A stretch of DNA of 64,000 nt. Source: Lunularia cruciata. Its lineage: Eukaryota > Streptophyta > Marchantiopsida > Lunulariales > Lunulariaceae. The position numbers and the translations under genes are program-made. Positions 4,301 through 62,843 of this stretch are shown here, piece by piece; position 1 is the stretch's first letter, and each line of letters starts with the position of its first letter. The stretch spans positions 75,282,333 to 75,346,332 of the forward strand of contig OX419756.1 in assembly GCA_948567375.1 (NCBI GenBank), written 5' to 3'. A model generated the notes under the pieces. That model searched no databases, had not been told where the DNA came from, and saw nothing but the letters and a program-made list of their open reading frames with translations.

Positions 4301-4448
4301 TCCAGCTCAACCAACTACCCACATAGATGACGAACCATGATCATGAGAAGCTGATAGAGAATGAGAGCATGAGGGTAATAAGGATAGAGAACGGGAGACA
4401 AAATTTCAAAAATGAAGAAAGGTCTTGAGCTAAGACATCCTCTTCTTC
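1342..4448. other. AT-rich intergenic DNA, no supported gene
   Basis: There is no open frame longer than about 90 codons with ATG and convincing composition. A 60-codon minus-strand frame at 2,141-2,323 has a charged, helical look (ILDYLEDPDHFKQIHKG) and may be a fossil of coding sequence. I cannot name a family. The rest looks like unconstrained AT-rich DNA. Confidence 0.5.
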
Positions 4449-4638
4449 TATGGGAAGAAAGACACCCACTTTAAAGATACTATCTTGGCTTTTGCACAAG
4501 ATCTTTCAAATGTGACCAAATTCAGAAGCAAATCAATTGAAGCTAGAGAGAGATGTAAACTAGCAAAAATTGAAGCCCATAAGATTGCCAAGATGGAGAA
4601 GTTAGACTCAAAGGGAAAGTTTAAAAAAGAGTATTGAT
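4449..4638 (+). other. Possible decayed coding fragment, charged helical peptide
   Basis: One frame stays open for about 62 codons and reads as a Lys/Glu-rich, probably helical peptide (contains DTILAFAQDLSNVTKFRSKS and ends KFKKEY before TGA). It has no ATG of its own, no recognised motif, and is surrounded by stops. It could be the remnant of a transposon protein or of a host exon. It is listed because its composition is more protein-like than its surroundings. Confidence 0.2.
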
Positions 4639-43970: not shown

Positions 43971-44409
43971 TGTCATGCCATTTGTAGTTCCGCATCTAGC
44001 TGCTCGGACACTAGAGTTCCAGTGATAGTAGTTAGAGTTATTCTAGTAGTTTCTCAAGGACTACTTTCCGACAGTCTGATTTGGTGTTCGGAGTACTGAC
44101 TTCACGGTGGGGCCCACCGTCACTTTGCACCAATTGCACCGTCAGCGGGACCGTTAGGGTTCTAGTGCTAGCTCGAGTCCAGGGGGTATAGTTTCGAAGT
44201 GAGCTCTAGAGAGCTCACTTCTCTGATGTTGAGCCTTCGAGTTCCTGGCTATGGTGGACAGAGGCCGGCGAGCATCACCTGGATTCTCTATGCTTGAGTG
44301 GGTGTGGCTTGACTGTAATCAGTGCCCAGTTGTTGGCAGTTTATAGAGTGACAGATTAAGTATTGATTTGAGTTGAGTTGAGTTGAAAGTGTTAAGCAAT
44401 CTGATTACA
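43971..44409 (+). repeat. 5' LTR of element D (region shared with 3' LTR)
   Basis: 43,971-44,407 matches 62,014-62,463 with roughly 95% identity and one 11-14 bp indel near 44,140. Homology ends after CAATCTGATTA. The LTR may be longer: the fragment at 355-1,341 continues colinearly past this point, and a PBS-like TGGTGGCAGAGTC (three differences from TGGTATCAGAGCC) is at 45,336-45,348, which would give an LTR of about 1.36 kb. A TATA-like TTTATAGAG is at about 44,339. Confidence 0.75.
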
Positions 44410-45762: not shown

Positions 45763-46426
45763 ATGATGGAGTTCTTTGGAGATTCCAGAGGAGTTAGCCC
45801 TGCAATACGCAATGGGTTTACTCGGAGTGGTGCTCGGTATCAGCCTGTATCTCAAGTCCCAGTGAGGGAGGAGATTGACTCTGAGTTGGAGTTCGACACA
45901 GGAGCTGATTCAGTTGAGAGTGCACTTGGTGTGTCTGCACCGTTGTTGTGGGACATGGATGAGATTTATAGGGCCTCCAAAGGCCCTAGGTGTTACTCTG
46001 GTATAGTGGGTACCATTGAGTTGGATGACTTCATCCATGAGTTTGATAGTTGGTGTGATCTGCAGCAAATGCGGAACCCGACTTTGTTCACACCCTTCAT
46101 GGCATGGAAGGGGTTTCAGCATCTAGAGGGTCCGCCAATGGATGATTACCATGAGTTCAGGAGAGCTCATTTGGAGGAGATTGAGTTATGGAGACAGTAT
46201 TGGTCTCCACACTATATTTCCATCACTTCAGGCTCAGTGGCCAAGAGTAGATCGGCTGTACCCACGAGTTCTAGCTCAAGTAGTGTTGGTGGAGCTAGTG
46301 GAGGTGCACTAGCTGGAGATAGTGCTACTACGAGTGGAGGTACCGCAGCAGGAGGTGGTGTGGTACCGGGGTTTAACCCCATGGTGGAGTTCTTCCTATG
46401 TTTGAGGTAGAACTACCAGGGAGTGC
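45763..46426 (+). pseudogene. gag of element D, N-terminal part
   Basis: The frame is open from upstream; the first ATG is at 45,763 (ATGATGGAG). It encodes about 215 residues before a TAG at 46,408 (one change from CAG). It then continues in frame (NYQGVRTDKLRSLQEF) across the element E insertion to 55,137 onward. A low-complexity Ser/Gly/Ala stretch lies at about 46,250-46,360. Capsid-like features are weak here; identity rests on position and on the gag C-terminal part downstream. Confidence 0.7.
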
Positions 46427-46432
46427 GGACTG
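46427..46432. other. Target site duplication of element E, left copy
   Basis: GGACTG here is repeated at 55,137-55,142, directly after the right end of element E. The five- or six-base match is ambiguous by one base because LTR and duplication share G. Removing element E and one copy restores the gag reading frame of element D exactly. Confidence 0.85.
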
Positions 46433-47120
46433 TGAGCCGGCCTATCTCTCACTCAGGATGAACCTCTGATGGCTATTATGCTAGTGCACCATGGACTGAG
46501 AAGGCAAGGAACCCAAACTCCATCATACTCCTCCAAGGCTAACACTCCAAGACTCAAGACATTGCTCACTAGAGAACTCAATGAGAGAGAGATAGTTGTA
46601 AATGAAAGGATGATGAGTACCTCCTCACCCCTTGTTTATATACTTGTGAAATAGTTACGTACCAAAGTTACTAATTACCGTAGTAACTCAAGTTACTAGA
46701 CTAAAAGTCAAGTAAAGTCAAAAAGTAGAAAGGAATATCCATTCACATAGGCATATTCCTCTAAGCATGTGGTCTTATCTTGACCCAACCACTAAGTCAA
46801 GGATTCTTTCACATGGGCTATCCTTGGACTAAAGAAGAATCCAAAACAAAAAGGTTTGCGGGCCCAAGAGTTCTCAACTCTTTCCTCAAAGCCAAACACC
46901 TAGGAATAATACCAAGTCAACACACTAAAATCCAAAATAGTGGTGCTCATCTTTTCTACTTCCTCTAAAGTAAGGTCCCATCTATCTTAGCTATGACTAA
47001 CTTTAGCTAACCATGACTAATATAGAACCATCCTTTATCTCCATAAATAATATCTCTTAAGTACTTGTAATACCAAGCTAAATATCACAATACCACACAC
47101 ATGCACAAATGGGTGTTACA
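46433..47120 (-). repeat. 3' LTR of element E
   Basis: 688 bp. On the plus strand it runs from TGAGCCGGCC to GGGTGTTACA. A polypurine tract (minus strand GTCCGGGGGTAAA, 47,121-47,133) adjoins it. Related copies at 53,553-54,238 and 54,447-55,136 differ at a few percent of sites. Confidence 0.9.
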
Positions 47121-47168
47121 TTTACCCCCGGACTAAGTTTTCACTTTGTCCTCAAAGTGAAGGTCTCT

Positions 47169-48335
47169 CTACCTTCTATGGTACATCTTCAACTTATCAT
47201 GGTTAATCCTATCAAAGTGTCTTCCTCCCAACTCCTTGAGATCATAGGTGTAATTGCCCCACACCTTCTCCACTATGAAAGGTCCAAAGTACTTAGGCAA
47301 AAACTTCTTTTGCACTCTCTTGAATCGAATGGAATCAAACAACATTACCCAATCACCTTCTTTGAAAGTCTCCACCTTCTTCTTGCCTTGCCTCTTGTCA
47401 TAGCTCTCCTTTTGTTTCCTTTGGGCTTGCTCCACTCGAACCATAGCAACTGCTCTTGCCTCTTCCAACTCCATGAGTTGATCCTTCCTTGACTTCTCTG
47501 CATCACCTCCTTGTGCTTTCTTCAATCTCCTATGAATGCTTTAGAAGGTAGGAAGATCAAAGTGAATAGGTAAGGTAGACTCAATACCATACACCAATTG
47601 AAATGGAGAATATCCGGTGGAAGTTTTCATGGTTGTCCTATACTCCCACAAAACTGCATGAATCCTCTTGTCCCAATGATGTTTAGCCCCCTCCATTTCT
47701 GCATTTTTGGCCAACATCATGCACAAGGTCTGATTGGTTCTCTCTGCCAAGCCATTGGAATTTGGCTTATAGGATGTAGTTACTCTATGTGTGATAGAGA
47801 AATGTCGTAGCATGGCTGTAGTAATGCTTCCTGTAAACTCTCCTCCTCTATCAGAAACCAACTCCAAAGGGCATCCAAACCTAGTGATAATGCGTTCATA
47901 AAGAAATCTACCCACTTCATCTTCATTCTTGTCCCTCAATGGTCTAGCCTCAACCCACTTGGTAAGGTAATCAGTAATTACCACAATGTACCGATTGTTC
48001 CTTGGGGTTCTATTGAGAGGACCTACAAAATCAATTCTCCACTTCTCAAAAGGTCTTAGCAATGGAATTGATCTAAGTGGTGGAGTGGATGTAGACTTTC
48101 TAGCAAAAGCTTGACAAACATGACAAGTTTTGCAATAATCAAGAAGTTCCTTGAAAATCCCTCTCCAATGGTAACCTGCATCTAGAATCTTGAAAGCAGT
48201 CACCTTTCCTGCAAAGTGTCCTCCACATACTAAACCTTCATGAAACTCCTTTATGAGTAGGATAGACTCTTCCTTACCCACTGCTCTTCGAAGTAGACCA
48301 TTTGATCCTTGGTGAAAAAGAATATCCTCCACCAT
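47169..48335 (-). pseudogene. Integrase of element E
   Basis: Two same-phase frames: 48,335-47,541 (264 aa) and 47,525-47,169 (118 aa). They are separated by one stop (47,541-47,543). The first has the HHCC zinc domain (EFHEGLVCGGHF ... CKTCHVC) and the catalytic triad: Asp in RIDFVGP, Asp in VSDRGGEF, Glu in NGLAERTNQ. The second carries the KVWGNYTYDLKEL, FGPFIVEK-type C-terminal module. No chromodomain. The phase differs from the long gag-pol ORF, so at least one frameshift plus the stop separates integrase from gag-pol. The active-site residues are intact. Confidence 0.88.
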
Positions 48336-48408
48336 TGTGTAAGGTCTAGATCTTGCTGCAAGGCCTTCCTCTCCCTAGCATGCATCCCTTCTGGATAGTT
48401 ACCTTTTG

Positions 48409-51400
48409 TCACAAATTCACAATCTCCTTGTACTCCATTGGAACCTCTTGAGTGACTGAGATTGTCATGAGCTCCTCATCCGGGAAGGAATCATCCACTG
48501 GCTCATCTCCATCATGATCATAGGCTCTAGATAATAAATCAGCATTTGCATATTTCTTTCCTGGCCTATCTTCAATGGTGTAGTCATACTCAGACAAGAG
48601 TATCATCCACCTTGCTAGTCTCCCTTCAACATTAGGCTTGTTGAAGATGTACTTCAAAGCCTTGTGATCCGTGACAATTGTGGCTTTCCCTCCAATCAAG
48701 TAGTGTCTAAACTTCTTGAGACCAAAGATCACTGCCAACCCTTCTCTCTCCATGACAGAGTAGTTCTTCTCTGCTGAAACCATCTGCCTACTAGCATAAG
48801 CTATTAGATGATCATGCCCATCTTGGTCTAATTGACTAAGAGTGCATCCTATAGCTACATTAGAAGCATCAGTGTAGAGGATGAAAGGCTTACTCCAATT
48901 AGGTTTAGCAAGAATTGGAGCTACAACAAGGGATTGCTTGAGCTCCTCAAAAGCTTTAAGAGCCTCCTTGTCCTCCAAAATCACCATGTAATCTACACCC
49001 TTCTTCATGTAGATGGTCAATGCATAAGCCTTGTTGGAAAATGAGAAGATGAACCTCCTATAGTATCCAACCATCCCCAAGAATTGGCGTAACTTTGTCA
49101 AGCTTGAAGGGAATGGAAGGTCTGAGATTTTCCTCACCTTCTCAGGATCAACTACTATTCCATCCTTGGAGATGATGTGCCCCAAAAGTAGACCTTCTTC
49201 ACATCCAAAAATGCACTTCTCTGGGTTGAGTGATGCATTTGCCTCATCCAAGCATTGCAAGACTTTGATTAGGTGTTCAAAGTGCTCCTCCTTGCTCCCA
49301 TAGACACAAAAGTCATCAATGAAGTCTCTCACAAATTTCCCAATGAAAGGTTCAAATACCCTGTTCATGAACCTTTGGAATGTGGTTGGAGCATTGCAAA
49401 GCCCAAAAGGCATGACCTTGAAAGCATAAGTTCCCCAAGGTGTGATGAACGTGGTGAGTTGTTGATGCTCTGGTGCAATCTTGATTTGGTTGTATCCACT
49501 ATAACCATCTCCAAAACTGTACCTCTCATGACCTGCAACCTCCTCCAAGATCTCATCAATGAATGGCAATGGGTAGTAGTCCTTCTTGGTAACAACATTG
49601 AGCTTCTTGTAATCCACACATACCCGAAGCTTGCCATTCTTTTTCTTCACAATGACAATTGGAGACACCCATTCTGAATTCTCCACCTCAAAGATAAATC
49701 CAGCATCCTTGAGCTTATCAATCTCCTCCTTCACAACCAAAGATATTGGTGGGCTAATGCGACGTTGCTTTTGGCGGACTGGTCTTGCATGTGACTCCAC
49801 CTCTATCTTGTGCTCCTCCAAGGTGACTTCCTTCAAATCCTTGTAATTGAAAGCAAACACATGGATGAACTTGCGGAAAATCTCCTCAAATCTCACCTTC
49901 TCCTCCTTGGTAACATTTGGACCATACTTGAGGGTAGCTAACCTTCTCTCTACCTCCTCAAGTGTCAATGGTGATTTGTCTGGGTCCTTCAAAACCTCTG
50001 GCTTAGGTGCACAATCCATAGCACACAAAGGATACACATCTGAATCAGATTCAGATTCATCCTCCTCCGTGGAAGTCTCCTCTTCCATGCTTGTGTCCAC
50101 ACCTGAAGCTCCTTCTTCAGAATCTGATTCCCAATAATTAGAAGATGGGGTATCTGAATGTGAAGTGTTGGTGGTGTTAGTCACAGGAACAGTGACTCTA
50201 TGGTTTGATGGCCCAATCCTCAAGTACCCTTTGTGCCATCGATCAGTTGTGCGTGCTGCTCTCAACCATGGCCTCCCAAGAAGTAAGTCATAGCTTGAAT
50301 CCTTCAAGACTTGGAAAGTCATGAGATTTTGAACTCCCATAACTGAAACTACCACCTTATCCATCACCCCTACTGGTCGAACTTGTTGCTTGTTTGCCAT
50401 GCTCACCACAAATGTTGAAGGTCTTGAGGGTATCATACCCAACGTCTTCATCAACCTTTCTGGCATGGCATTCACTGCTGATCCTCCATCAACCAATGCA
50501 TCCTTGATGTTGTGACCATTCACTCTCACATCAATCTTGGAGGCATATTCACAAGCCTCCCATGGTGCTGGCTTGGCATCCACCACCCCCATTGATACTG
50601 GAACTTTTGCCTTCTTCTTCTTCTTGCTCCTTGTAGAACTCAAACCACCTCTAAGCTCCTTTCTCAAGGTAGGGTTCAAAGCAATTAATTGGCCCACTGT
50701 GATGTTAGCCTTGTGACTACTAACATCCTCCAACACATTGTAGTTCCATTGTTGCTTTGAGATCAAGAAGTCCTCCATCCCCAACTTCTTCCTTGGAGTC
50801 TTTGTTGTTGATGGTGTTGAGGTGCGAGTGCTCCTAGTAGACATAGGAGTATCCTTGCTTGAAGTAAATCCTTGAGAAGAGTGAACATCCTGTGCAAAAC
50901 GAGCTCTCTTCTTCTCTTGTGCCAAAAGCTCCAAATTAAGACCCTTGGAGTTTGAGCACTCTCCCTTCTCATACTTGCTCTCAACCACATCTATGGATGC
51001 TATCTCCTTACCTTTGTTGGGATTAGGAGCTACTTGGGTTTCACTACCTCCCTCTTTCTCTCTATTGGCTCCCTCATAACTCCTTCCTCCATGGTAAGTG
51101 GAATTTGGGCAATTCCTTTGGATATGGCCTCTTCCTCCACAACCAAAACAATTTTTATCATTGAAATTGTTGGCTGGTTGGCCTCCTCTATATGGATAGT
51201 TTCCATAACTCCTAGGCCCTCTCCCTACATTATGATCCACCTCTCTCTTCTCCCATAGTTGCACCACATTGATCTTGAGATCCGCAAGTTGTTCTGTGAT
51301 GGTTTGGAGTGGATCTTTTGGTGGAGGTGCAAGAACTGGAGCAACTACTACTTGTGGTGCAACCCTTGTCATCAAAGTATCAGAAGTTCCATCATACTTG

Positions 51401-51993
51401 TAGCCTTGAGGAGGATGCACAACCTCCTTCACCACCAAATCACTCTCATCCCCTTCCAAACTCTCCTCCATACGAATTGCGATCTTGATAGCTTCAACCT
51501 TGGAAGAAGGTTTCTCATATCTCACCTTGCTTCTAATTTGTGGTCTCAATCCTCCCACAAAATTCTTGGTGAGCATGGCCCCTATGCCAATCATTGTAGT
51601 CTCCACATCATCCCCACCCTTCCTCAACACTATGCGAAATCTGGACTCCAACTTTTCCACTCTTTCCACATAGACTCTCACTTTCTCTCCTTCTCCTTGC
51701 TTGAGAAATGTAACCTCACTCATCAATCTCTCATAACTCTCATCAGGAAGAAAGTTCTCAATGAGAGCTGAAGTCAAAGTCTCCCAAGACTCCTCTTCCC
51801 CATCTCTCCTCTCTCTTTTTTGGTATTCTGACTCATACCATGTAAGTGCTGCATCCTCAAAGAAATCTGGTAATAATGAGGCCAACTCATTCTTCCTCCT
51901 CTCATTGTTTCCTATGCAAGCTCTCTTGAAGTCTCTCACAAAGGCCTCCACATCTTCTCCATCCTTGCCAAAGAAAACTGGAAGTTTTCCCAT
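48409..51993 (-). CDS. gag-protease-RT-RNase H polyprotein of element E
   Basis: Intact 1,194-codon ORF with ATG at 51,993. Gag capsid is about residues 1-180. One CCHC knuckle (CFGCGGRGHIQRNC) is at 282-295. An aspartic protease (VDGGSAVNAMP, Asp at about 502) has Gly in place of Ser/Thr. An acidic Glu/Ser linker spans about 620-652. RT runs about 755-980 (VCVDYKKLN, FGDGYSGYNQI, VMPFGLCNAPTTF, catalytic FIDD at about 891-894), and RNase H about 1,036-1,160 (YTDAS, MEREGLA, VTDHKAL). Such polyproteins form the virus-like particle and copy the RNA. The ORF stops before integrase, which is out of phase, so the copy is probably non-autonomous now. It has the best-preserved coding capacity in the nest. 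Confidence 0.92.
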   Translation of the reverse strand: MGKLPVFFGKDGEDVEAFVRDFKRACIGNNERRKNELASLLPDFFEDAALTWYESEYQKRERRDGEEESWETLTSALIENFLPDESYERLMSEVTFLKQGEGEKVRVYVERVEKLESRFRIVLRKGGDDVETTMIGIGAMLTKNFVGGLRPQIRSKVRYEKPSSKVEAIKIAIRMEESLEGDESDLVVKEVVHPPQGYKYDGTSDTLMTRVAPQVVVAPVLAPPPKDPLQTITEQLADLKINVVQLWEKREVDHNVGRGPRSYGNYPYRGGQPANNFNDKNCFGCGGRGHIQRNCPNSTYHGGRSYEGANREKEGGSETQVAPNPNKGKEIASIDVVESKYEKGECSNSKGLNLELLAQEKKRARFAQDVHSSQGFTSSKDTPMSTRSTRTSTPSTTKTPRKKLGMEDFLISKQQWNYNVLEDVSSHKANITVGQLIALNPTLRKELRGGLSSTRSKKKKKAKVPVSMGVVDAKPAPWEACEYASKIDVRVNGHNIKDALVDGGSAVNAMPERLMKTLGMIPSRPSTFVVSMANKQQVRPVGVMDKVVVSVMGVQNLMTFQVLKDSSYDLLLGRPWLRAARTTDRWHKGYLRIGPSNHRVTVPVTNTTNTSHSDTPSSNYWESDSEEGASGVDTSMEEETSTEEDESESDSDVYPLCAMDCAPKPEVLKDPDKSPLTLEEVERRLATLKYGPNVTKEEKVRFEEIFRKFIHVFAFNYKDLKEVTLEEHKIEVESHARPVRQKQRRISPPISLVVKEEIDKLKDAGFIFEVENSEWVSPIVIVKKKNGKLRVCVDYKKLNVVTKKDYYPLPFIDEILEEVAGHERYSFGDGYSGYNQIKIAPEHQQLTTFITPWGTYAFKVMPFGLCNAPTTFQRFMNRVFEPFIGKFVRDFIDDFCVYGSKEEHFEHLIKVLQCLDEANASLNPEKCIFGCEEGLLLGHIISKDGIVVDPEKVRKISDLPFPSSLTKLRQFLGMVGYYRRFIFSFSNKAYALTIYMKKGVDYMVILEDKEALKAFEELKQSLVVAPILAKPNWSKPFILYTDASNVAIGCTLSQLDQDGHDHLIAYASRQMVSAEKNYSVMEREGLAVIFGLKKFRHYLIGGKATIVTDHKALKYIFNKPNVEGRLARWMILLSEYDYTIEDRPGKKYANADLLSRAYDHDGDEPVDDSFPDEELMTISVTQEVPMEYKEIVNL

Positions 51994-52217
51994 CTTAACC
52001 CCTCACTATCTTTCTTTTCTCTCAAATTTTTTTTTTCTCTCACTCTATTACTAATAGAGTATATACATGACTAACACCATCTGAGAATAATCCACTCTAG
52101 GGAAAATAAAAGGTTCAGGTTGCTCCAAGATTTCTATAGCAACATCAAATCCTAGAGTGCATATTAATCTAACTCTCATGGATAGTTTATCCATAAGTTG
52201 AAAGATTATCTCCATCA

Positions 52218-52821
52218 CTAATCTTGAGAACTAGCTGATGAAGGTGGTAATATTTCTGTAGCTGTACTAAGACTCTCTCCAAGATCCTTCACCAAAGTTT
52301 CCAAAAGTGCTTTTACTCTACTACACTCATGTCCTTTTGGAAGTCCTTCAACTCCACAAACCTCACACAACTCCTTGGTCTTAGATCTTCTCCCTCCCAA
52401 TCTTGGTGAAGAAGGTCCAACATGCAAACCCAAGTCAAGTAAGCCTCTCCTTTCCCTCAATCTCTTGCTCTCAAAGGTCAATGGACATGAACTTGCCTTA
52501 TGTCCCTTCTCTCTACATAGAAAGCACTTAGACTCACTCTTTCCTCCAAGTGGTGTGGGTTTTTGGATCCTCTCAATACTCTCTTCAAATTCTATTGTAA
52601 ACTCTCTTTTTCTCAAATCAACCCCTATAATCACCTCAAACCCTTGGGGAACCTTGCATAATCTCAATTTCCACTCTTGATGACCCTCCATATTCCCAAG
52701 ATGAATCTAAACACTCAAACATGCTTTTTGTTGATCTCAAACTTCTCATGCATGAGATCTCCACTTTGCAGAATTGACCATTCCTCACAATGTCACTCAA
52801 ATCTCCCAACCAATGTGTCAC
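52218..52821 (-). pseudogene. Extra zinc-knuckle ORF upstream of gag (element E)
   Basis: Two overlapping frames (52,821-52,636 and 52,691-52,218) probably represent one protein of about 200 residues with a frameshift. The C-terminal part has a canonical CCHC knuckle (CFLCREKGHKASSC), followed by a second Cys/His cluster (CEVCGVEGLPKGHEC). The block before the knuckle recalls the CCHC-terminated gag-like proteins of plant LINEs, but this is only a pattern impression. It lies about 220 bp upstream of the gag start, where Ogre/Tat elements carry an additional ORF1. A nucleic-acid-binding role is inferred from the knuckle. Confidence 0.65.
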
Positions 52822-53338
52822 AGTCCTCTGAAATTTTGCACACTTGATAACAACTCAAGGGCGTCCCTCCCTGCAGAATTTCAGATCTTTTCATCTAGCC
52901 ATTTGGTCTAGACACCTTTCTATTCAGCACCCATATTTCAGATTTGGTCTGAAAACAACCCCCCTCACTTCAAAAACTCATTTCTCCCTGCGCAAGAACG
53001 ATCTCTCTCTAATTTTTGTGCCAGCAAGTAGGATACAATGCACTAAATTTCCTTGGAAATTTTCAGGACAATTCACTGAAAATTGAAGAAATGGCAGACT
53101 CTGTACAATTTTCTAGAGAGCATGCAGTTGCGGGAGCACTTTACCCTATCAACTTTCAAAAATTCTAGCCCAGTGCGCATAGAAGCTCTCACAATAATTT
53201 CAAGTGTGCTAACTGAAAGATAACTGAAGCTATCATGTGTAGAAATCTCAAGTCCAGATCTCAAACTTGAGATTTTGCCCAAAATCACCTTAATCCCCAA
53301 AATCTACAATCCACCTCACACAATCTCTCCAATTCCTC

Positions 53339-53509
53339 TCATGTGTACAAGATGTACAAAATCACCTCAAAGACATCATAATGAACTACAGGGTATACAA
53401 ATGGATCTTGGTTCTCTAACATAAGTTCAGCACTCTCCTCTCCTAATGTTCTCTCCAAGTGAGCTCTCATAACCTCCTTCTGCCTAATGTAGAATTGGAC
53501 GCGGAACAT
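53339..53509 (-). CDS. Small leader ORF of element E
   Basis: 56 codons from ATG (53,507-53,509), starting 20-odd bases after the PBS; the frame is also open upstream into the LTR, without ATG. The peptide reads MFRVQFYIRQKEVMR, then GEESAELMLENQDPF, then VYPVVHYDVFEV. It resembles the two leader ORFs of chromovirus A2 (62,877-63,306). No family recognised. A near-identical copy is in the duplicated leader at 54,239-54,403. Confidence 0.5.
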   Translation of the reverse strand: MFRVQFYIRQKEVMRAHLERTLGEESAELMLENQDPFVYPVVHYDVFEVILYILYT

Positions 53510-53529
53510 TATCTTGCCCTCTAGAGAGG

Positions 53530-53546
53530 TCCCGGCAACGGAACCA
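53530..53546 (-). other. Primer-binding site of element E
   Basis: Minus strand TGGTTCCGTTGCCGGGA, six bases after the LTR end. It is close to TGGCGCCGTTGCCGGGGA, a tRNA-complementary PBS common in plant Athila/Tat-type elements. A second copy is at about 54,425-54,440. Confidence 0.7.
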
Positions 53547-53552
53547 AAAATG

Positions 53553-54238
53553 TGAGCCGGCCTGTCGCTCACTCAGGATGAACCTCTGATGGCTATTATG
53601 GTAGCGCACCATGGACTAAGAAGGCAAGGAACCCGAACTCCATCATACTCCTCCAAGGCTAACACTCCAAGACTCAAGACATTGCTCACTAGAGAACTCA
53701 ATGAGAGAGATAGTTGCAAATGAACGGATGATGAGTACCTCCTCACCCCTTGTTTATATACTTGTGAAATAGTTACGTACCAAAGTTACTAATTACCGTA
53801 GTAACTCAAGTGACTAGACTAAAAGTCAAGTAAAGTCAAAAAGTAGAAAGGAATATCCATTCACATGGGCATATTCCCCTAAGCATGTGGTCTTATCTTG
53901 ACCCAACCACTAAGTCAAGGATTCCTTCACATGGGCTATCCTTGGAATAATGAAGAATCCAAAAGAAAAAGGTTTGCGGGCCCAAGAGTTCTCAACTCTT
54001 TCCTCAAAGCCAAACACCTAGGAATAATGCCAAGTCAACACACTAAAATCCAAAATAATGGTGCTCATCTTTTCTACTTCCTCTAAAGTAAGGTCCACTC
54101 TATCTTATCTATGACTAACTTTAGCTAACCATGACTAATATAGAACCATCCTTTATCTCTATGAATAATATCTCTTAAGTACTTGTAATACCAAGCTAAA
54201 TATCACAATACCACACACATGCACAAATGGGTGTTATA
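53553..54238 (-). repeat. Inner 5' LTR of element E
   Basis: 686 bp. On the plus strand it runs from TGAGCCGGCC to TGTTATA (the expected terminal CA reads TA). This copy directly precedes the PBS and coding region. It is followed by a second leader and LTR. Confidence 0.88.
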
Positions 54239-54446
54239 GTACAAGATGTACAAAATCACCTCAAAGACATCATAATGAACTACAGGGTATACAAATGGAT
54301 CTTGGTTCTCTAACATAAGTTCAGCACTCTCCTCTCCTAATGTTCTCTCCAAGTGAGCTCTCATAGCCTCCTTCTGCCTAATGTAGAATTGAACGTGGAA
54401 CATTATCTTGCCTTCTGGAGAGGTCCCGGCAACGGAACCAAAAATG
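54239..54446 (-). repeat. Duplicated 208-bp leader segment of element E
   Basis: Matches 53,345-53,552 base for base in length (208 bp) with a handful of substitutions. It includes the PBS and the start of the small leader ORF. Together with the adjacent LTR it makes a tandem repeat: 53,345-54,238 (894 bp) and 54,239-55,136 (898 bp). Confidence 0.9.
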
Positions 54447-55136
54447 TGAGCCGGCCTGTCTCTCACTCAGGATGAACCTCTGATGGCTATTATGGTAGCG
54501 CACCATGGACTAAGAAGGCAAGGAACCCAGACTCCATCATACTCCTTCAAGGCTAACACTCCAAGACTCAAGACATTGCTCACTAGAGAATTCAATGAGA
54601 GAGAGATAGTTGCAAATGAAAGGATGATGAGTACCTCCTCACCCCTTGTTTATATACTTGTGAAATAGTTACGTACCAAAGTTACTAATTACTGTAGTAA
54701 CTCAAGTTACTAGACTAAAAGTCAAGTAAAGTCAAAAAGTAGAAAGGAATATCCATTCACATGGGCATATTCCTCTAAGCATGTGGTCTTATCTTGACCC
54801 AACCACTAAGTCAAGGATTCCTTCACATGGGCTATCCTTGGACTAAAGAAGAATCCAAAACAAAAAGGTTTGCGGGCCCAAGAGTTCTCAACTCTTTCCT
54901 CAAAGCCAAACACCTAGGAATAATACCAAGTCAACACACTAAAATCCAAAATAGTGGTGCTCATCTTTTCTACTTCCTCTAAAGTAAGGTCCCATCTATC
55001 TTAGCTATGACTAACTTTAGCTAACCATGACTAATATAGAACCATCCTTTATCTCTATATAAATAATATCTCTTAAGTACTTGTAATACCAAGCTAAATA
55101 TCACAATACCACACACATGCACAAATGGGTGTTACA
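54447..55136 (-). repeat. Outer 5' LTR of element E
   Basis: 690 bp from TGAGCCGGCC to GGGTGTTACA on the plus strand. It abuts the right-hand target duplication GGACTG (55,137-55,142), so it is the true outer end of the integrated element. Confidence 0.9.
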
Positions 55137-56000
55137 GGACTGACAAGCTGAGGAGCTTGCAGGAGTTCCAGCGAAAGGCTGGAGAGAGCCTACGTGAGGC
55201 ATACACTCGCATGAGGTGGCTGATCTGTTTCACTCAGGGAGTTACTGAGGCCCAGGCAGTCCAGTTTTGGTATGGGATACTGGATAGGGAGTTGAGACGT
55301 AGAGTTCGTGATGCTATGTTGTTGCAGGCTACTTCACCCACTTTGGCAGTAGTCTTCGGTTTGGCTGAGCGTATTGAGCTCAACATGGTGGAGGAGAGAG
55401 TGGTGACATCTGGATTTGGTAGAGAGACCACATCCACGGTTGTGACTTCTTCTAGAGTGCAACAGAGTGCACCACGCCCAGTTGGTTTTTGAGGACAGGG
55501 TGGACAGCCCAGATCCTATGGAGCGAGTGGAGGGCCTAGTGGAGTTAAACCCTTGCCTTCATTTTTGGGTCAGCAGCAGCCATTGAGTGGTGGTGTTGCT
55601 TGTTGGACTTGTGGTGGACCTCACCATAGGAGAGAGTGTACTCAGGGCAGCGGACCTGATACCTCTGGTGCATCACAGCTAGCACAGAGGCAGTGTGAGC
55701 ACTGCCATAGATTTGGTCACACTAGTGACCGGTGTTTTGACCTACACTCGGAGTTACGGAGTGGTAGGGTTGCTATGGCAGGTAGTAGAGGAGCTCCAGT
55801 TCATGGAGGACAAGGTGGTAGAGGTGGTGGTAGAGGATCTACACCTAGTAGGGGTGCAGTACCTGCCCTTACTTCTGACACAGCTATGGCTACTCAGATT
55901 GAGCAGAGATTGGCTAGTATGGCTATTGCTCAAAGGAGATCAGATTTGGGTGCTGAGGCTTCTACCTCATATGCTGGTGATAGAGATGCTTTGGACTTCA
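55137..56000 (+). pseudogene. gag of element D, C-terminal part with two zinc knuckles
   Basis: Continues the gag frame of 45,763-46,426. Capsid C-terminal-like block (FQRKAGESLREAYTRMRWL, then VQFWYGILDRELRRRVRD). A TGA at 55,490 (one change from CGA) interrupts it. Two knuckles follow: CWTCGGPHHRREC (C-X2-C-X3-H-X4-C) at about 55,600 and CEHCHRFGHTSDRC (C-X2-C-X4-H-X4-C) at about 55,695. A Gly/Arg-rich stretch comes after. By family knowledge this is the nucleocapsid that packages element RNA. Confidence 0.85.
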
Positions 56001-56518
56001 TGTGCGGAGCAGCCCAGGTGGATGCATCTGCAGCAGTGACTAGGAGTGCAGTATGTGCTCCAGAGCCTAGAGGAGCATCAGTGGAGTTGGACCCACAGAG
56101 AGGAGAGGTTGGGAGACAGGTCAGACTTCCCCAATCTTTCACGCTATCTGAGGCATTACAGACAACATCCATGGTTCCTAGATGTCCCAGTGCAGGTGTG
56201 GTAGGTGGTGATGGAGTACTTGATGGAGTACCTGCTAGTCAGCCACCTGCTACTACACAGACTGCATCTAGCATGATGTTGGGGGCGGGTCAGCTGATTA
56301 TGCGGCATCCTTTATTTTCAGCCAGTGACATGTTTACATCGGGAGTTGACCTAGCCCCAGTATTCCGGTTGGCTGCCACGTTGTGTGAGAGTAGGGATGG
56401 TGCAATTCCTACTACTAGAGCAGAGGTGGTTGGTAGTGGAGCTGACTTGGTTGAGGAGCATGGGATCCGTTCAGCGACCAATGGTTTATGGTAGGCAGCA
56501 GCGGCTAGACTGGAGGAG

Positions 56519-56830
56519 TTGCCAGCTAGACCGGCCTTTGAGAGAGCGCGGTTTACACCTGGTGTTGTCCTATTGGATAACCAGAGGGAGATTTTTTGTT
56601 TGGTGGGACCTTCAGGGAAGGTCTATACACCACAGAGAGTCTTGTTAGACTCTGGTGCGCAACCTCTTATGTTGGGGAAGGCTGCAGTTGTCGGTCTGGA
56701 GTTACGGAAGATCGATGTGGAGAGGTGTCCATTTCAGATCCAGACATCTCTAGGTGGTGGTTCGACATAGTACATCACACGTGGGGAGCTTTTTGTCCAG
56801 GTTCAGCTTGGTCATCCGACTGATAGCTCG
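56519..56830 (+). pseudogene. Aspartic protease of element D
   Basis: In the same frame as gag. Catalytic motif VLLDSGAQPLMLG (Asp codon 56,648-56,650). TAG codons at 56,492 and 56,768, each one change from CAG, bracket it. The region to about 57,330 links protease and methyltransferase without recognised domains (contains DVLVGGAVLYPMGFSIDYW). Confidence 0.8.
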
Positions 56831-57334
56831 GTGGTGAGAGCTCAGGCTATTGCGACGATAGCTGAGTCATATGATGTGCTAGTTGGGGGAGCAGTGTTAT
56901 ACCCTATGGGTTTCAGCATTGACTATTGGGAGGAGACAGCCTCTTATAGACCTGGTTGGCAATCTGGTGAGGGATGGGTATGTCGCCTACCAGTACGCTT
57001 CAGTAGTGGCAGTCTTGGCTCATTACAGTCCCGGACCATGGCAGCATCAGTTTTGGCTTTCAGCGGTGTAGTTACTTGGCCTGGTGACTTGTTGGAGGGG
57101 AACGCCCATGCAGAGGATACTCCAGTACCAGAGGAGATCACTCGGCTTTGGAGTACGAGTGGGATTGTTCCATCCACCTTGGATGTTCCATTGTGGAGTT
57201 TAGAGGAGGCATTGCAGCAACATGCAGATCAGTTGGTGCAGCAGGCTTGGAGTGGAGCCTTTGTACCATCAGGGGATGAGTGTGAGGATGAGCCTCCAGA
57301 GGCGATTGCTTTGACACCTCTGGATACCACACTC

Positions 57335-58300
57335 ATTGCTTGGCAGTATCCAGTAGAGGGGATATGTCTATTGGAGTTGTTTGGTGGGATCAGCACCGGA
57401 CTAGCTGCGGTGTTACAAGCGGGTATACGAGTACAGAGGTACTTGTATGTAGAGAGAGATGAGACTGCTAGGTGAGTCTCTCTACATCATGTGGCACACT
57501 TGGCTTATCGGTATCCGGAGTTATTACCGATGTCAGCAGTCAGAGGTTACCAGAAGGCCTTACCAAGAGACATTTCCTTACTGGGGGCGCATGACCTAGA
57601 GAGACATAGGCCTATTCACTGGGTGATTTCTGGATGGCCATGTTAGGGACATACACGTGCGGGCCACGGTTTGGGTCTTCAGGATCCTCGTTCTGGTGTG
57701 TTTTGGGAGATGTTATGGATACTACGACATCTCCAGGTTCATCAGTCTGTTTCTCCAGCTTACCTTTTGGAGAATGTTCCTTTGATGGGTGATTCTCGCA
57801 CTAGAGTGGTGGCGAGTACACATCAGATCCATTCTTGGATGGGACCTGCTGTATTGTTAGATGCAGCCAAAGTGGGATCACGGGCTCATCGTCTTCGTCT
57901 TTGGTGGATGAACCTCTTACCCAGAGAGGTTCTACAACGTAGTTATGATGGGATTCAGCGACTAGACCACATTCTTGTTGATGACATCTTGGATGATGGA
58001 CGTCAGTCTCAGACAGTGGTAGTGGCTGATAGGTCACCTATGGCAGTGGTGAACCTAGTTGGACAGCCTAGAGCTGCATTTCCCACACTCATGAGTTTCC
58101 CAAGGTCTCATGCTTTTCGAGAGGGAGGACCCGGACTTGTTTGGGACTCACAGTTACAGCAGTTGGTGGAGCCCAACGCTGATGAGAGAGAGCGGGCGAT
58201 GGGTTTTTGCACCGGTATTACCGCTATTCCAGCAGTGTCAGAGGCATCCAGGCGTCAGGTGTTAGGTCAGGCTATGGACCTGAACTGTTTGATCTGGATT
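57335..58300 (+). pseudogene. Dnmt3-type cytosine-5 DNA methyltransferase domain in element D
   Basis: All catalytic blocks of a C5 methyltransferase occur in canonical order in one frame. Motif I is CLLELFGGISTGLAAVLQAG (57,365-57,424), the S-adenosylmethionine site. Motif IV is WVISGWPC with the catalytic Cys at 57,641-57,643. Motif VI is LLENVPLMG (Glu at 57,770-57,772). Motif VIII is LLDAAKVGSRAHRLRLWW (about 57,854-57,907). Motifs IX/X are ERERAMGFCTGIT, then SEASRRQVLGQAMDL (about 58,184-58,285). The spacing, the RYL after motif I and the AHR block follow Dnmt3; the order is not permuted as in plant DRM. There are two stops: TGA at 57,473 (from CGA) and TAG at 57,644, exactly in place of the Gln expected after the catalytic Pro-Cys. 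The ancestral product would methylate cytosine in DNA; this copy cannot. Confidence 0.9.
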
Positions 58301-58871
58301 GTGAGCCTTGGTTTGGCAGAGCAGCGTAGGATGCGCTTGATAGGCATCACCACTCGGACACTTGTGAGCCCTGTGCTATCGAGACGATTCAGGCACATGT
58401 TGGGGACGATGGACCAAGTGGACATGGTATTCTTGGGACACATCCAGTAGCTACTAGGGAGAGTGGTCTACTTGGAGTCCATCCAGGTGAGCGTGGGCTA
58501 CTTGGATTACACCCTTGGTCCACATGGGATGCAGCCAGAGGACGTGTGGAGCTTGCAGCCAGAGTGGAGGGAGTTTTTCACACAGGGGCTGGGACCTCTA
58601 GTGGTCGGGAGCATGACACTATTGCTCCCAAGGGCCAAGTGTAGCAGTCAGTCAATACGTCTTCCACTCCTACTATAGTTACAGAGGATACTTGGGAGCC
58701 AGATCTTGGACCCAAGCTTACTAGAGAGGAAAGACGGAGGGTTTGGAGGTTCTTGAGGAGTCACATGAGTTGTTTTGCCTTCAGTATGAAGGATTTGGGT
58801 GCTCTGAAGGGACATGGTATACGGATTGAGCTGACTAGCGACACATCTGACGTCCTTATCGATATAGTGAG
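58300..58871 (+). pseudogene. Methyltransferase-RT linker of element D
   Basis: In a frame one base earlier than the methyltransferase, the sequence reads through short repeats (ESGLLGVHPGERGLLGLHP) to DTWEPDLGPKLTREERRRVW, then FLRSHMSCFAFSMKDLG and GHGIRIEL, the usual N-terminal approach of a Ty3 RT. A TAG at 58,642 (from CAG) lies in this frame. Another -1 change near 58,840-58,850 leads to the RT frame. Confidence 0.65.
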
Positions 58872-59460
58872 ATGGAGAGGACATTGATTCAGAGCCGGAG
58901 TAGTGATCTTTTTGAGGCTGGTTTGGTGGAGATTTCACATGGAGAGTATGCATCAGCGACAGTGATGCCAACCAAGAAGGATATGCATGGCAACTATATA
59001 GATAGGCGGATGTGTGGAGATTACCGTCCTATCAACCGACAGACCAGGGCTGATCGGTATGCCATGCCTACACCGGAGGAGATTTTTGATGCGATTGGGC
59101 ATGCAAAGGTCTTTAGTACTTTGGATCTTCGAGCGGGATATCATCAGTTGCCGATCAGGGAGGAGGATAAGTCCAAGACAACATTTTGGGCTATTGATCC
59201 TCACGGCAAGGATGTGTTACATCAGTGGAGGTTCTTACCATTTGGGTTGAAGAATGCTCCCGCTGAGTTCCAGAGGGTCATGGATAGGATCCTAGCTGGA
59301 TTGGATTTTGCTCGGTGCTATATTGATGACATTTTGGTTTATAGCACTACTGTGGAGGAGCATGAGAGACAATTGTTGGAGGTGTTTGAGAGGTTGAGAT
59401 CTCATGGACTCAAATTACATCCTGGGAAGTGTAGGTTCTTCCACGACAGGTTGAGTATTT
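58872..59460 (+). pseudogene. Reverse transcriptase of element D
   Basis: Frame with MCGDYRPINRQT, TLDLRAGYHQLPI, FLPFGLKNAPAEF and the catalytic YIDDILVYS (Tyr codon 59,319-59,321). At about 59,455, after KLHPGKCRFFHDR, a third -1 frame change occurs. The downstream frame continues YLGHTIYPGGLGV and, past a TGA at 59,555 (from CGA), AFLGLANFYCRYV. RT motifs are complete and recognisably Ty3-like. Confidence 0.88.
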
Positions 59461-60640
59461 GGGTCACACTATCTACCCCGGAGGACTTGGTGTCCATCAG
59501 ACCAAGGTGGAGGCTATTGCACGTATTCCTCGGCCTACGGATGTGAGCAGAGTGTGAGCATTCCTTGGGTTGGCAAACTTCTATTGCCGCTATGTTAGAG
59601 GATTTAGTGCCATTGCCAAGGCCTTGACAAAGCTGACCAAGCTTACACAAGAGTGGTGTTGGGGAGATGAGCAAGAGAGAGCTTTTGTAGAGCTCAAGGA
59701 GAGGCTGACATCTGCTCCTATTTTGAGGAGATCGATCAGGGGACGACCATTTCAGGTTCACACTGATTGGAGTATGTTGGGGCTTGGAGCGGTGCTCACC
59801 CAACATGATGATGAGGAGAAGGAGTTTGTGGTGGCCTATGCTAGTCGCTCCAACAATTCAGTGGAGGTGAAGTATAGTTCATATGAGGGAGAGTGCTTGG
59901 CAGCAATTTGGGCAGTAGCACATTTCCGATGTTACCTATTTGGTAACCCCTTCACTCTCATCACTGATCATCAGCCGCTGAAGTGGTTGATGGAGTCCGA
60001 CAAGCTTTCAAGGAAGCTTGCACGATGGGCTCTGATTTTACAGGAGTATGATTTCACGGTTGTTCATAGACCTGGAGTGGTGAACCGTGATGCAGATGGG
60101 TTGAGTAGAAACCCATGTCCCAGCAAGCAGGATCAGACCGGAGCACGTTGGCATGGTGAGACAGATGAGGAGATGGTGCCAGGTTGGCATGCATTGGCCT
60201 TTCTGTGTATATTTGTAGAGACTTTGGTGGTATCTCTCTCAGCGCATACAGGAGGAGTTATTGAGGTCACAGATCCAGAGAGTGAAGATATTGGTACAGT
60301 TCAGCGAGACATTCATGATGATATCTTAGTGATGGACTATCTTCGCACTGGTGTTGTGGGTGGCACAGTTGGGGCCAAGGAGAGAGACTGTGTTCTTCAG
60401 CGAGCCAGACGGTTCAGATTGGAGGGTAGACATCTTTTGTGTATATGGGAGGATGGTAGAGTGCGAGTAGTACCACTTCCATCACAGAGACCACAGTTGG
60501 TCCGTCATGCTCATGAGGAGCTAGGACATTTTGGAGTAAAGCGTACATATAGCTTACTTCAGAGTCATTATTGGTGGCGCGGTATGTAGACCGAGGTATA
60601 GCAGTTTGTTGCCAGATGTGTGGTTTGTGACCGAGTTAGA
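59461..60640 (+). pseudogene. RNase H and integrase zinc domain of element D
   Basis: The open frame 59,558-60,589 has RNase H landmarks: Asp in VHTDWSMLG, Glu in YEGECLA, Asp in ITDHQPLKW, then HRPGVVNRDADGLSR. The integrase HHCC domain begins with HAHEELGHFG. A TAG at 60,587 (from CAG) splits it from the CVVC half (VARCVVCDRV, about 60,612-60,640). Confidence 0.88.
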
Positions 60641-61590
60641 GCATCATTCAATGCTCCTACGCCGTAGTTACACATGGGATTGGGTTACCGTTGGAGTTTG
60701 GACTTTGCCGGACCTTTACCGCTGACTGTGAGACATCATCGGTATGTTTTGGTGATGATGGAGCACTTCTCCAAGTGGATTGAGTTGGTGGCACTTCCTG
60801 ACAAGTCTAGTGAAGGGACAACTTACTCGTTTCTAGATTGAGTTCTTAGTCATTTTGGTGCACCAACTGAGGTTTTGACTGATCAGGGTACGGAGTTCTT
60901 GGGGGAGTTTCAGGTCTTGTGTGACAAGGCTTTGATTGATCATCATACTACATCCCGAGATCATCCTGAGGCAGATGGCTTTGCAGAGAGAGTGGTTCAG
61001 ACGGTGAAGAGAGGATTGCGAAAGTATGGTTTGCAGAGAGGCCACTTGGGAGATTGGGATCTCCAGTTACCTTGGTTGGCCATGGGGTATCGATTCAGCC
61101 GGCTATCCTCCTTAGCATCCTTCTTTCCATACTTTCTACTCTATGGACGAGATCCAGATTTACCTACAGCCATTCGTCGAGATGCTACTGTAGTTTTGGA
61201 CTTGGATGACCCTGATGTATGGATGAGCGCATGTTCTCAGCGGGCAGAGATCTTTCGGAGAGTGATGCCGATGGCCTTTGAGAACTTGGCGATTGCTCAG
61301 CATAGAGATACTTTACGCTATGCTACCATTCAAGGAGGAGGTTATAGACCCTCGATCCGTTGATTTTATCCAGGCGACTATGTATATCTACAGCAGACAG
61401 CACCGACTACACTTGATGTTTCTACAGGCCACACTATCTTGAGAGTGCGTGAGGTTTTGCCATCTGGAGTCCTTGTGTTAGAAGGACGTGATGGTGTTGT
61501 TTGGAAGGATCATGTGCGCAATTGTGTGCCATGCCACCTCCCAAACATTGATGGTACTATGGACCCAAGCTTGGCACTTGTACGTGTAGG
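60641..61590 (+). pseudogene. Integrase catalytic core of element D
   Basis: Same frame as RNase H. The D,D,E triad is present: Asp 60,701 (SFDFAGPLP), Asp 60,881 (LTDQGTEF) and Glu 60,986 (ADGFAERV), with 34 residues between the second and third. Stops TAG 60,665, TGA 60,839 and TGA 61,361 are each one change from CAG or CGA. The C-terminal module FYPGDYVYLQQ and TILRVREVLPSGVLVLEG leads into the PHD finger. Confidence 0.88.
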
Positions 61591-61738
61591 CTTGAGGTGT
61601 ATGTTATGTGACTCTTCTGGTGGAGCTGCTACTATGTTAGTGTGTGATAGTTGTTTGAGAGGATGGCATATGGCATGTATGACTCCTCCTCTCATGGTGG
61701 TTCCTCAAGGACAGTGGTTATGTCCTAGATGTACTTGA
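61591..61738 (+). pseudogene. PHD finger at the integrase C-terminus of element D
   Basis: The last 48 residues of pol fit the PHD consensus Cys4-His-Cys3 completely: CMLC, eleven residues, CDSC, four, H, two, C, then a 14-residue stretch ending in GQW before LCPRC. Terminator TGA at 61,736. By family knowledge PHD fingers read the histone H3 tail. Position at the integrase end is that of the chromodomain in chromoviruses, so a targeting role is inferred. No stop lies inside the domain. Confidence 0.88.
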
Positions 61739-61905
61739 CCTATAGCTAGTTCATTCTTATATGGTATAGATTGCAGACAGGCGACTAACGATGGGGCTCC
61801 ATAGCACCCGGCCTCCTGATCTTTGCCCATTAGAGGGTATACCATATACTTAGAGTAGATGGCTATCTGGAGTTAGAGGGACCTAACCGCCAGCTAGGGG
61901 GGCGA
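61739..61905 (+). other. 3' untranslated region and PPT-like tract of element D
   Basis: Non-coding. It ends with GCTAGGGGGGCGAT (about 61,893-61,906), a polypurine-tract-like run that lies immediately before the 107-bp repeat rather than before the TGTCAC of the LTR copy. Confidence 0.6.
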
Positions 61906-62012
61906 TTGTGGCACTTTACAATCTATGTATGACTTATGTGTGAGTTGTGCTTCTATAGAGTATGATGTTGACAGCGATGTATGTTGTGTAGCGATGTATA
62001 TACGCACGACAA
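61906..62012 (+). repeat. 107-bp direct repeat, copy 1 (inner)
   Basis: TTGTGGCACTTTAC...ACGCACGACAA. It recurs at 62,464-62,570 with about five differences. It separates the PPT-like tract from the 3' LTR copy. Confidence 0.92.
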
Positions 62013-62013
62013 C

Positions 62014-62463
62014 TGTCACGCCATTTGTAGTTCTGCATCTAGCTGCTCGGACACTGGAGTTCCAGTGATAGTAGTTAGAGTTATTCTAGTAGTTTCTCAG
62101 GGACTACTTTCCGACTGTCTGATTTGGTGTTCGGGGTACTAACTTCACGGTGGGGCCCACCGTCACTTTCCACCATTCGCACCGTCAAGTGTGCCATCAG
62201 TGGGACCGTTAGGGTTCTAGTGCTAGCTCGAGTCCAGGGGGGTATAGTTTCGAAGTGAGCTCCAGAGAGCTCACTTCTCTGATGTTGAGCCTTCGAGTTC
62301 CTGGCTATGGTGGACAGAGGCCGGTGAGCGTCACCTGGATTCTCTATGCTTGAGTGGGTGTGGCTTGACTGTAATCAATGCCCAGTTGTTGGCAGTTTAT
62401 AGAGTGTCAGATCAAGTACTGATCTGAGTTGAGTTGAGTTGAAAGTGTTAAGCAATCTGATTA
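62014..62463 (+). repeat. 3' LTR copy of element D
   Basis: 450 bp from TGTCACGCC to CAATCTGATTA, matching 43,971-44,407. At the end the sequence switches to the 107-bp repeat instead of the ACATCARAGAAGTGAAG seen in the other two copies. Confidence 0.88.
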
Positions 62464-62570
62464 TTGTGGCACTTTAGAGTCTATGTATGACTTATGTGTG
62501 AGTTGTGCTTCTATAGTGTATGATGTTGATAGCGATGTATGTTGTGTAGCGATGTATATACGCACGACAA
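62464..62570 (+). repeat. 107-bp direct repeat, copy 2 (outer)
   Basis: Second copy of 61,906-62,012. Its end (CGACA at 62,569) abuts AACG, which matches the left flank AACG at 43,967-43,970. The integrated DNA therefore appears to end with this repeat. Confidence 0.9.
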
Positions 62571-62843
62571 ACGCTGCTCCTTGTAAGGCTCAATGTTGCA
62601 GGTCTTCTTCATCCGGAGTAGCAATGTGGCTTCATTGTTGATAGGGTTTGTAGGCACGGGTGCCTCTCCAAGTACTTCAGTCGCAGGTATTGGGTTTTGA
62701 GACGGCTCTTCTTCTTGCATGGCTTGATCGTTCCTGAGGATCTACACTTGACTTTGTAATGTCTCCATGGTCATCTTAATCTCTCAAAGTTCATTCAACA
62801 TCCCTTGCATTCCTTGCACCAACTCTTGCAATTGTGGATCCAT
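62571..62843 (-). pseudogene. gag, N-terminal part (A2)
   Basis: ATG at 62,841-62,843 (MDPQLQELVQGMQGML) opens a frame with an N-terminal coiled-coil-like stretch typical of chromovirus gag (contains EIKMTMETLQSQV). A TGA and a TAG interrupt it in the first 35 codons. The frame runs on through a Pro-rich stretch to NIEPYKEQR, where element D is inserted, and resumes at 43,970. Confidence 0.8.

Follow-up and report, generated by a model that had tools for sequence, protein, structure and literature searches.

A DNMT3-type methyltransferase domain in the polyprotein of an abundant Ty3/Gypsy retrotransposon family of the liverwort Lunularia cruciata

Introduction

Retrotransposons that carry DNA methyltransferases (DNMTs) have been published from the alga Klebsormidium nitens (KnitGypsy-Dnmt3) and from dinoflagellates (SymbioDIRS-Dnmt3) (de Mendoza et al., 2018; PMC5890265). 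The text of that report describes DIRS-like repeats for KnitGypsy-Dnmt3 (legend to its Fig. 4) and a DNMT under purifying selection; in yeast this DNMT gave no methylation, a result that the authors call inconclusive, human DNMT3B having failed too. For SymbioDIRS-Dnmt3 the same text reports de novo CG methylation in yeast. A paper of 2025 mentions, in its accessible part, retrotransposon DNMTs in streptophytes and dinoflagellates (PMC12344493), and the accessible part of an opinion paper states that they do not occur in land plants such as tracheophytes (PMC6338049). No description of methyltransferase (MTase) retrotransposons in liverworts or mosses was found in the literature searched, which included the accessible parts of PMC9033089, PMC6453930, PMC5784723 and PMC8616336 and lay outside most subscription journals and bioRxiv.

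The present analysis concerns a stretch of 64,000 nucleotides (the window) from the genome of the liverwort Lunularia cruciata (contig OX419756.1, positions 75,282,333 to 75,346,332), in which a complete DNMT3-type MTase had been predicted within a Ty3/Gypsy polyprotein. The placement of such a domain in such a polyprotein was borne out and is repeated across the genome; the Ty3/Gypsy family concerned is abundant, and its copy in the window has decayed.

Results

Anatomy of the element in the window

The features of the element are collected in Table 1. Reverse transcriptase (RT) and RNase H are followed by a DDE integrase, the order of Ty3/Gypsy elements, according to Pfam in both the window copy and L044, a sister copy with an open frame whose integrase matches H2C2 (E = 3.8e-19) and rve (E = 3.6e-13). 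The 5' part of the element (repeat A1 and the start of gag, 43,971–46,432) lies beyond the part that had been recognized originally and is split off from it by a second LTR element nested in gag. With this insertion, several stops and a change in length, the window copy is dead.

The nested minus-strand element is itself Ty3/Gypsy-like and, at its right end, carries a tandem pair of LTR-like units, each of ~895 bp (53345–54238 and 54239–55137). Elsewhere in the window, on the minus strand at 355–1361, a further copy of the MTase element is represented by a 5'-end fragment with A1 and leader sequence, ~88% identical. The 3' flank of L044 (its positions 9943–10000) matches same-family gag (window 56150–56207), so that L044 sits inside another copy.

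Table 1. Features of the MTase element and of the element nested in it (window coordinates).
Feature	Position	Strand	Basis or remark
Target-site duplication, left (AACG)	43967–43970	.	matches 62570–62573
Repeat A1, left element end, starts TGTC	43971–44407	+	aligns with A1 and A2 of L044
5' leader and N-terminal gag; Met of MDEIYRASKGPR at ~45955	44408–46432	+	93% to L044 30–2487
Nested second LTR element in gag, foreign to the MTase element	46431–55136	-	GGACTG at both junctions
Polyprotein frame of nested LTR element	48409–52002	-	1197 codons, gag-pol
Remaining gag; CCHC-type knuckles from about 55601	55137–56494	+	sequence; stops in window copy; no Pfam match
Retropepsin-like protease region and linker; VLLDSGAQP, presumably the retropepsin-like motif, at 56639–56665	56495–57361	+	sequence; no Pfam match in window copy
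DNMT3-type C5 methyltransferase domain	57362–58327	+	translation, genome search, solved-structure ranking, Pfam of sister copy, alignment
Motif I	57368–57403	+	within MTase domain
Motif IV, Cys	57641–57643	+	within MTase domain
Motif VI, ENV	57770–57778	+	within MTase domain
Motif VIII	57881–57898	+	within MTase domain
Motif IX/X	about 58178–58291	+	within MTase domain
TAG then CAG TCA, between MTase and RT	58642–58650	+	UAG CAR YYA context; in frame with both in sister copies
Reverse transcriptase	58651–59546	+	Pfam RVT_1 7.7e-28
RNase H	59558–60140	+	Pfam RT_RNaseH 6.8e-36
Integrase: H2C2 zinc finger and DDE (rve) core; stops in window copy	60479–61590	+	H2C2 1.2e-10; rve 0.013, below cut-off
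PHD finger, C-terminus of integrase frame	61598–61732	+	Pfam PHD 2.2e-10; 8.4e-11 in L044
Polypurine tract (AGGGGGG), putative	61896–61902	+	sequence; putative function
Repeat B1	61905–62011	+	sequence comparison
Repeat A2; 2-nt spacer of B1/A2 joint at 62012–62013	62014–62462	+	sequence comparison
Repeat B2, right element end, ...GACA	62463–62569	+	sequence comparison
Target-site duplication, right (AACG)	62570–62573	.	matches left copy

The methyltransferase domain

Re-translation of 57,335–58,300 gave the canonical motif order that had been predicted, with segments that we take to be motifs I (LELFGGISTGL), IV (SGWPC), VI (ENV) and VIII (RAHRLR) followed by IX/X, i.e. the non-rearranged arrangement of the DNMT3 family. 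The domain had also been called complete; it does have its full extent, from motif I to motif X, but it is not intact, with in-domain stops at 57,473 and 57,644 and a length of 1,361 nt for 57,281–58,641 where 32 of 37 copies have 1,362 nt. The Pfam profile PF00145, proposed as a check on the same interval, found no match at E ≤ 0.1 in the stop-free pieces of the window domain, and sister copies were therefore used instead; L044 matches the profile with E = 5.1e-7, which passes the curated cut-off.

When solved structures are ranked against the L044 MTase, the best relatives are DNMT3A (1.2e-11) and also DNMT3B, with M.HaeIII (0.0005), DRM (0.002), HhaI (0.015) and DNMT2 (0.04) far lower and DNMT1 absent among the 54 matches. 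A 12-sequence profile of relatives gives DNMT3A 3.7e-14, M.HaeIII 1.9e-5 and plant DRM 3.5e-5. By this ranking the element MTase is nearer to DNMT3 than to DRM, DNMT2 or the bacterial enzymes, and its place may be either inside or beside DNMT3. An AlphaFold model of the relative P0003 (12-row alignment) had a mean pLDDT of 39.8 and was discarded.

Copies in the host genome

When the host assembly (74 contigs, 565.8 Mb) was searched with a piece of the MTase, 11,206 candidates resulted, the best of which were scored; at least 150 places have the domain, and these come from the top of the candidate list. Those other than the window are 93–96% identical over 226–227 of 227 residues, with open frames of up to 1,447 codons. 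Twelve ten-kb copies all follow the window element colinearly, apart from an inner gap in one and an early end in another, and less damaged copies with the same domain order, the search for which had been suggested with the prediction, exist in L041 and L044, both with intact frames. The B1/A2 joint, of which each element should have one, was counted 1,377 times in the whole genome at up to two mismatches (reversed pattern: 0); were all of these full-length elements of roughly 9.9 kb, they would make up ~2.4% of the genome. In the first 54 Mb of contig C1 the stop site between MTase and RT lies 3.36–3.42 kb upstream, in the same orientation, of 28 of the 39 exact B/A joints and is absent at 11. 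Divergence between A1 and A2 within single insertions is low (K2P 0.004–0.027, 11 copies), so that these 11 are recent on a relative scale.

Taken by itself the window copy, broken, nested with another element and lacking a Pfam MTase match in its own pieces, could suggest a host gene that landed in a single copy by chance, or an assembly artefact. We give this practically no credence, since the domain is in 150 scored places, 28 of the 39 exact joints (all but 11, first 54 Mb of C1) have the stop site upstream, relatives occur in Marchantia and Sphagnum, and the host DNMT3-like genes are separate, exon-split and on another branch of the tree. Insertion by chance into one copy, the case that had been named as fatal to the prediction, is excluded by the scored places together with the 12 colinear copies, and a host gene is ruled out likewise by copies, relatives and tree.

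A conserved stop between methyltransferase and reverse transcriptase

Gag, protease and MTase form a single frame of 1,431 (L041) or 1,428 (L044) codons, counted from the preceding stop, which ends at a stop; in both copies RT resumes in the same frame after this in-frame TAG. The domain order gag-protease-MTase, then RT, RNase H and integrase, is thus as predicted, but RT shares the frame only past the TAG. The context TAG CAR YYA surrounds the stop in all 37 distinct copies, the window copy included. The extended stop site has 975 exact matches in the genome and its reversed control none; the pattern had TAG fixed, so the stop-bearing share is known from the 37 copies only. In tobamoviruses UAG CAR YYA is a readthrough signal, as documented in the accessible text of PMC3542737.

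Among the 46 database matches to the MTase, eight proteins were chosen for inspection of their C-termini (P0001, P0002, P0003 and P0013–P0017), and all eight end soon after the MTase, whichever stop codon closes them. In the database models P0004, P0006 and P0012 (Marchantia), P0019 (Sphagnum) and P0043 (Closterium) the MTase is continuous with RT, a fusion that may be annotation or real. The layout suggests that the MTase would be produced at the level of Gag and packaged in the particle. Many metagenome relatives have the MTase after RNase H, so that Gag-level dosage would not be universal.

Repeats, termini and integration

Copies are laid out as A1-coding-B1-A2-B2, A being about 449 nt long and B about 107 nt. 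The classic Ty3/Gypsy arrangement, in which identical LTRs close the insertion on either side, is not seen: A stands at the left, B at the right, and B-A is internal. The element is Gypsy by its domains, with non-standard repeats. Ends were analysed in 22 copies, 14 readable at both ends and 8 not; these 14 and the window copy all have a 4-bp target-site duplication outside A1 and B2 (15 of 15), with TG...CA ends. The putative polypurine tract lies just 5' of B1, a position from which reverse transcription would be expected to produce a long B-A repeat; the integration ends, ...GACA and TGTC..., lie inside that repeat. The B/A spacer is GC in 18 of the 20 joints read, GT once and AC once; the window copy has AC. 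With GC the joint GACAGCTGTC (GACA-GC-TGTC) is a perfect palindrome. The simplest way to turn a B-A...B-A cDNA into an A...B-A-B insertion would be to join its ends into a circle and then cut one B/A joint. No clear TGG marks the start of a tRNA primer site in the sequence that follows A1.

An A-coding-B-A-B layout is that of DIRS elements, as the text of PMC5890265 describes them, and could be the work of a DIRS-type tyrosine recombinase acting in trans rather than of the element's DDE integrase. This is very improbable: 4-bp duplications are found in every readable copy, the ends are TG...CA, the element encodes its own DDE integrase and zinc finger, and the CA/TG spacer is GC in 18 of 20 joints, hence not target-derived. 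A tyrosine recombinase, the DIRS trait, was found in none of the window frames and L044 pieces (1713–9110) given to Pfam, which returned the DDE integrase instead.

The PHD finger

By sequence, the nearest solved relatives of the C-terminal finger are the PHD fingers of CHD4, KMT2D, KMT2C, PHF12, DPF3, KAT6A and KDM5B, and by analogy we infer that it may bind histone H3. A PHD finger is annotated in 17 of the 46 MTase matches (precomputed domain column). Since such a finger could bring the fusion protein to chromatin, the MTase might act in trans on the host genome (host promoters, rival elements) rather than on the element's own cDNA; very many copies would supply the dosage, and effects on the host methylome are discussed by the Symbiodinium authors in the text of PMC5890265. 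The main product, however, would be Gag-PR-MTase, with neither PHD finger nor integrase, and we consider an action on the host genome distinctly unlikely.

Conservation and selection

Between L044 and the Marchantia protein P0001, identity is 74% for the MTase (329 of 329 residues), 70% for the gag N-terminus and 53% for the gag linker; the MTase is 71% identical to that of P0002. For these two Marchantia proteins the protease region gives 57% and 56% and the stretch after the MTase 40% and 34% (57% and 40% being P0001), and RT is 77% identical to P0012 and 67% to P0006, the latter a gapped model. Against the more distant P0013, the MTase is at 53%, gag at 27% and the protease region at 37%. 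Judged by these identities, MTase and RT are similarly well conserved between liverwort genera, and the MTase is the best-kept part of its own ORF, with the gag N-terminus close behind in Marchantia.

The motif-IV Cys is kept in 36 of 37 aligned element sequences, the exception being a gap in a gene model, and the motif-VI Glu-Asn likewise in 36 of 37; motif VIII is mostly kept. The alignment left out 10 of the 46 matches as partial or gapped (P0004, P0005, P0007–P0011, P0018, P0020 and P0021), and the GWPC pattern is absent from two of these, P0004 and P0009. In 15 of the 37 rows (e.g. P0022, P0026, P0041 and P0043) motif IV reads GWEC, not GWPC, the normally invariant Pro being replaced by Glu with the catalytic Cys kept, and two further rows (P0039 and P0042) have GPEC; PCQ is retained in the group of L044, Marchantia and P0003. 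The loss of the usual Pro-Cys in these 17 rows, together with the inactivity in yeast of the KnitGypsy-Dnmt3 DNMT given in the text of PMC5890265, would suit a fold kept for a non-catalytic job (e.g. nucleic-acid binding in the particle) or an enzyme that methylates RNA, not DNA. We regard either as unlikely, since the Cys and Glu-Asn, and mostly motif VIII, have been kept across deep divergence, PCQ persists in the group to which L044 belongs, and DNMT3 ranks far above the tRNA enzyme DNMT2 among solved structures.

Within the genome, pN/pS is 0.36 for the MTase (half-samples 0.27–0.54), 0.47 for the linker after it and 0.76 in a simple neutral simulation. The sample consists of the 22 stop-free copies out of 37 picked by query similarity or long frames; because it is biased towards intact copies, the ratio supports selection on the MTase weakly. 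Differences between C and T among the 37 copies amount to 4.4% per CG, 3.4% per CHG and 1.0% per CHH site. Past methylation of the copies at CG and CHG is probable, and since host enzymes are enough to account for the bias, the element's own enzyme need not be invoked.

Relatives and descent

The 46 database matches to the MTase comprise 14 from Marchantia polymorpha, one from Sphagnum fallax, one from Closterium and 30 others, metagenomic ones included; identity to the MTase query is 71% for Marchantia P0001 and 48% for Sphagnum P0019. Several of the other and metagenomic relatives have the order RT-RNaseH-MTase-integrase-PHD, which was checked in P0022, P0026 and P0034. By eye, P0022 and P0034 have a further C-terminal stretch that is SAM-methyltransferase-like, where Pfam gave no match, and comparison of P0034 with viral contigs found no relative. 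P0013–P0017, from ENA contigs of 7–10 kb, have the same Gag-PR-MTase ORF with an MTase 49–53% identical.

Among the host's own genes, recognized by eye from their motifs, are a DRM (L002), DNMT3-like genes split into exon pieces (L001 and L004) and one CMT-like exon (L003). For the DRM frame, Riccia sorocarpa is closest (63–74%) in the 120 matches listed out of 982, followed by Sphagnum, Calypogeia, Diphasiastrum and fern proteins (54–56%). The DRM thus points to a land plant, most probably a complex thalloid liverwort, and the wider distribution foreseen should the host be a land plant holds.

In the MTase tree (36 rows; P0012, P0040, P0044, P0045 and host L004 dropped from 41) a 100/100 branch separates the element MTases from DNMT3A, the host DNMT3-like L001 and the host DRM. 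L044, Marchantia, Sphagnum and P0003 form a group with 100/99 support; P0046 and Closterium are on long branches. A phylogeny had been called for; this one sets the element MTases, Closterium included, apart from its only three non-element rows. The RT tree, limited to the 23 rows in which more than 120 positions matched, joins L044 and the window copy with two Marchantia rows (100/99) and places 16 metagenomic elements on one side (97/96); its base is unresolved, and the single plain Gypsy row cannot root it.

One old capture of the MTase, followed by its relocation within the polyprotein, fits these data best, as judged from the trees and domain orders. A capture by the bryophyte elements independent of that in Klebsormidium, or horizontal transfer from algae, is possible but doubtful: Klebsormidium is absent among the 46 matches and the RT tree has no resolved base, whereas the position of all element MTases, Closterium among them, on one side of the 100/100 branch favours one shared capture, given three non-element rows and the long branches of P0046 and Closterium.

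Discussion

We lean slightly towards a reading that joins these observations, as far as sequences can carry it. A eukaryotic DNMT3-type MTase would have been captured long ago by a Ty3/Gypsy family. Most translation would yield Gag-PR-MTase, and readthrough of the leaky stop a minor fusion that also contains RT-RH-IN-PHD. Made at the level of Gag, the MTase would be packaged in the particle in which cDNA is made and could methylate the element's own DNA, either in that place or in the nucleus, where a circular form would be the substrate. The circle would be opened by integrase at the palindromic B/A joint, and the PHD finger would tether integrase to histone H3.

A bolder and much more tentative proposal is that the circle with its B/A joint (GACA-GC-TGTC) is the true integrase substrate and is methylated by the Gag-level MTase before integration, so that copies would be born methylated, across bryophytes and the algal relatives. 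If so, the element would install its own silencing mark, perhaps hiding from the sensing of foreign DNA or limiting damage to the host.

A land-plant genome with an abundant family of MTase retrotransposons lets one ask why a transposon should make the mark that usually silences it. Close relatives in Marchantia, a tractable model plant, make this question directly testable, and the leaky stop and displaced integration ends are two further testable oddities.

Compared with KnitGypsy-Dnmt3 as described in the text of de Mendoza et al. (2018), the Lunularia element is likewise a Gypsy with a non-rearranged DNMT3-type domain in its polyprotein ORF and A-coding-B-A-B repeats, a likeness judged from the published description. 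The hosts differ, an alga in one case and in the other a land plant with 1,377 B/A joints, and the Lunularia element is further set apart by the UAG CAR YYA stop that closes Gag-PR-MTase, the C-terminal PHD finger, the measured 4-bp duplications and the palindromic joint; the main text of that report, as distinct from its figures and supplements, mentions neither 'PHD' nor 'target site'. SymbioDIRS-Dnmt3, in the same text, shares the DNMT3-type domain in a retrotransposon polyprotein and the A-coding-B-A-B repeats, but is a DIRS element with a tyrosine recombinase, whereas the Lunularia element is a Gypsy with a DDE integrase. Literature listings gave nothing closer for split repeats in Gypsy, PHD fingers in Gypsy or readthrough in retrotransposons.

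Among the relatives, P0001 and P0002 of Marchantia polymorpha have the Gag-PR-MTase order of the Lunularia element. These and other relatives in Marchantia and Sphagnum fallax (P0019 among them) are annotated only as hypothetical or domain proteins, and the literature searched held no description of them as MTase retrotransposons. Chromoviruses are Ty3/Gypsy elements with a chromodomain, a chromatin reader, at the C-terminus of integrase; the Lunularia element has a PHD finger there and the MTase in addition. The dUTPase of betaretroviruses, encoded in the Pro region, is a DNA-maintenance enzyme made with the Gag-Pro product; it is a different enzyme from the Lunularia MTase and the parallel is one of analogy only. 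The Lunularia family is of a known kind, the MTase retrotransposon, here in a land-plant form whose expression signal is unusual, whose integrase has a PHD tail and whose integration ends are displaced.
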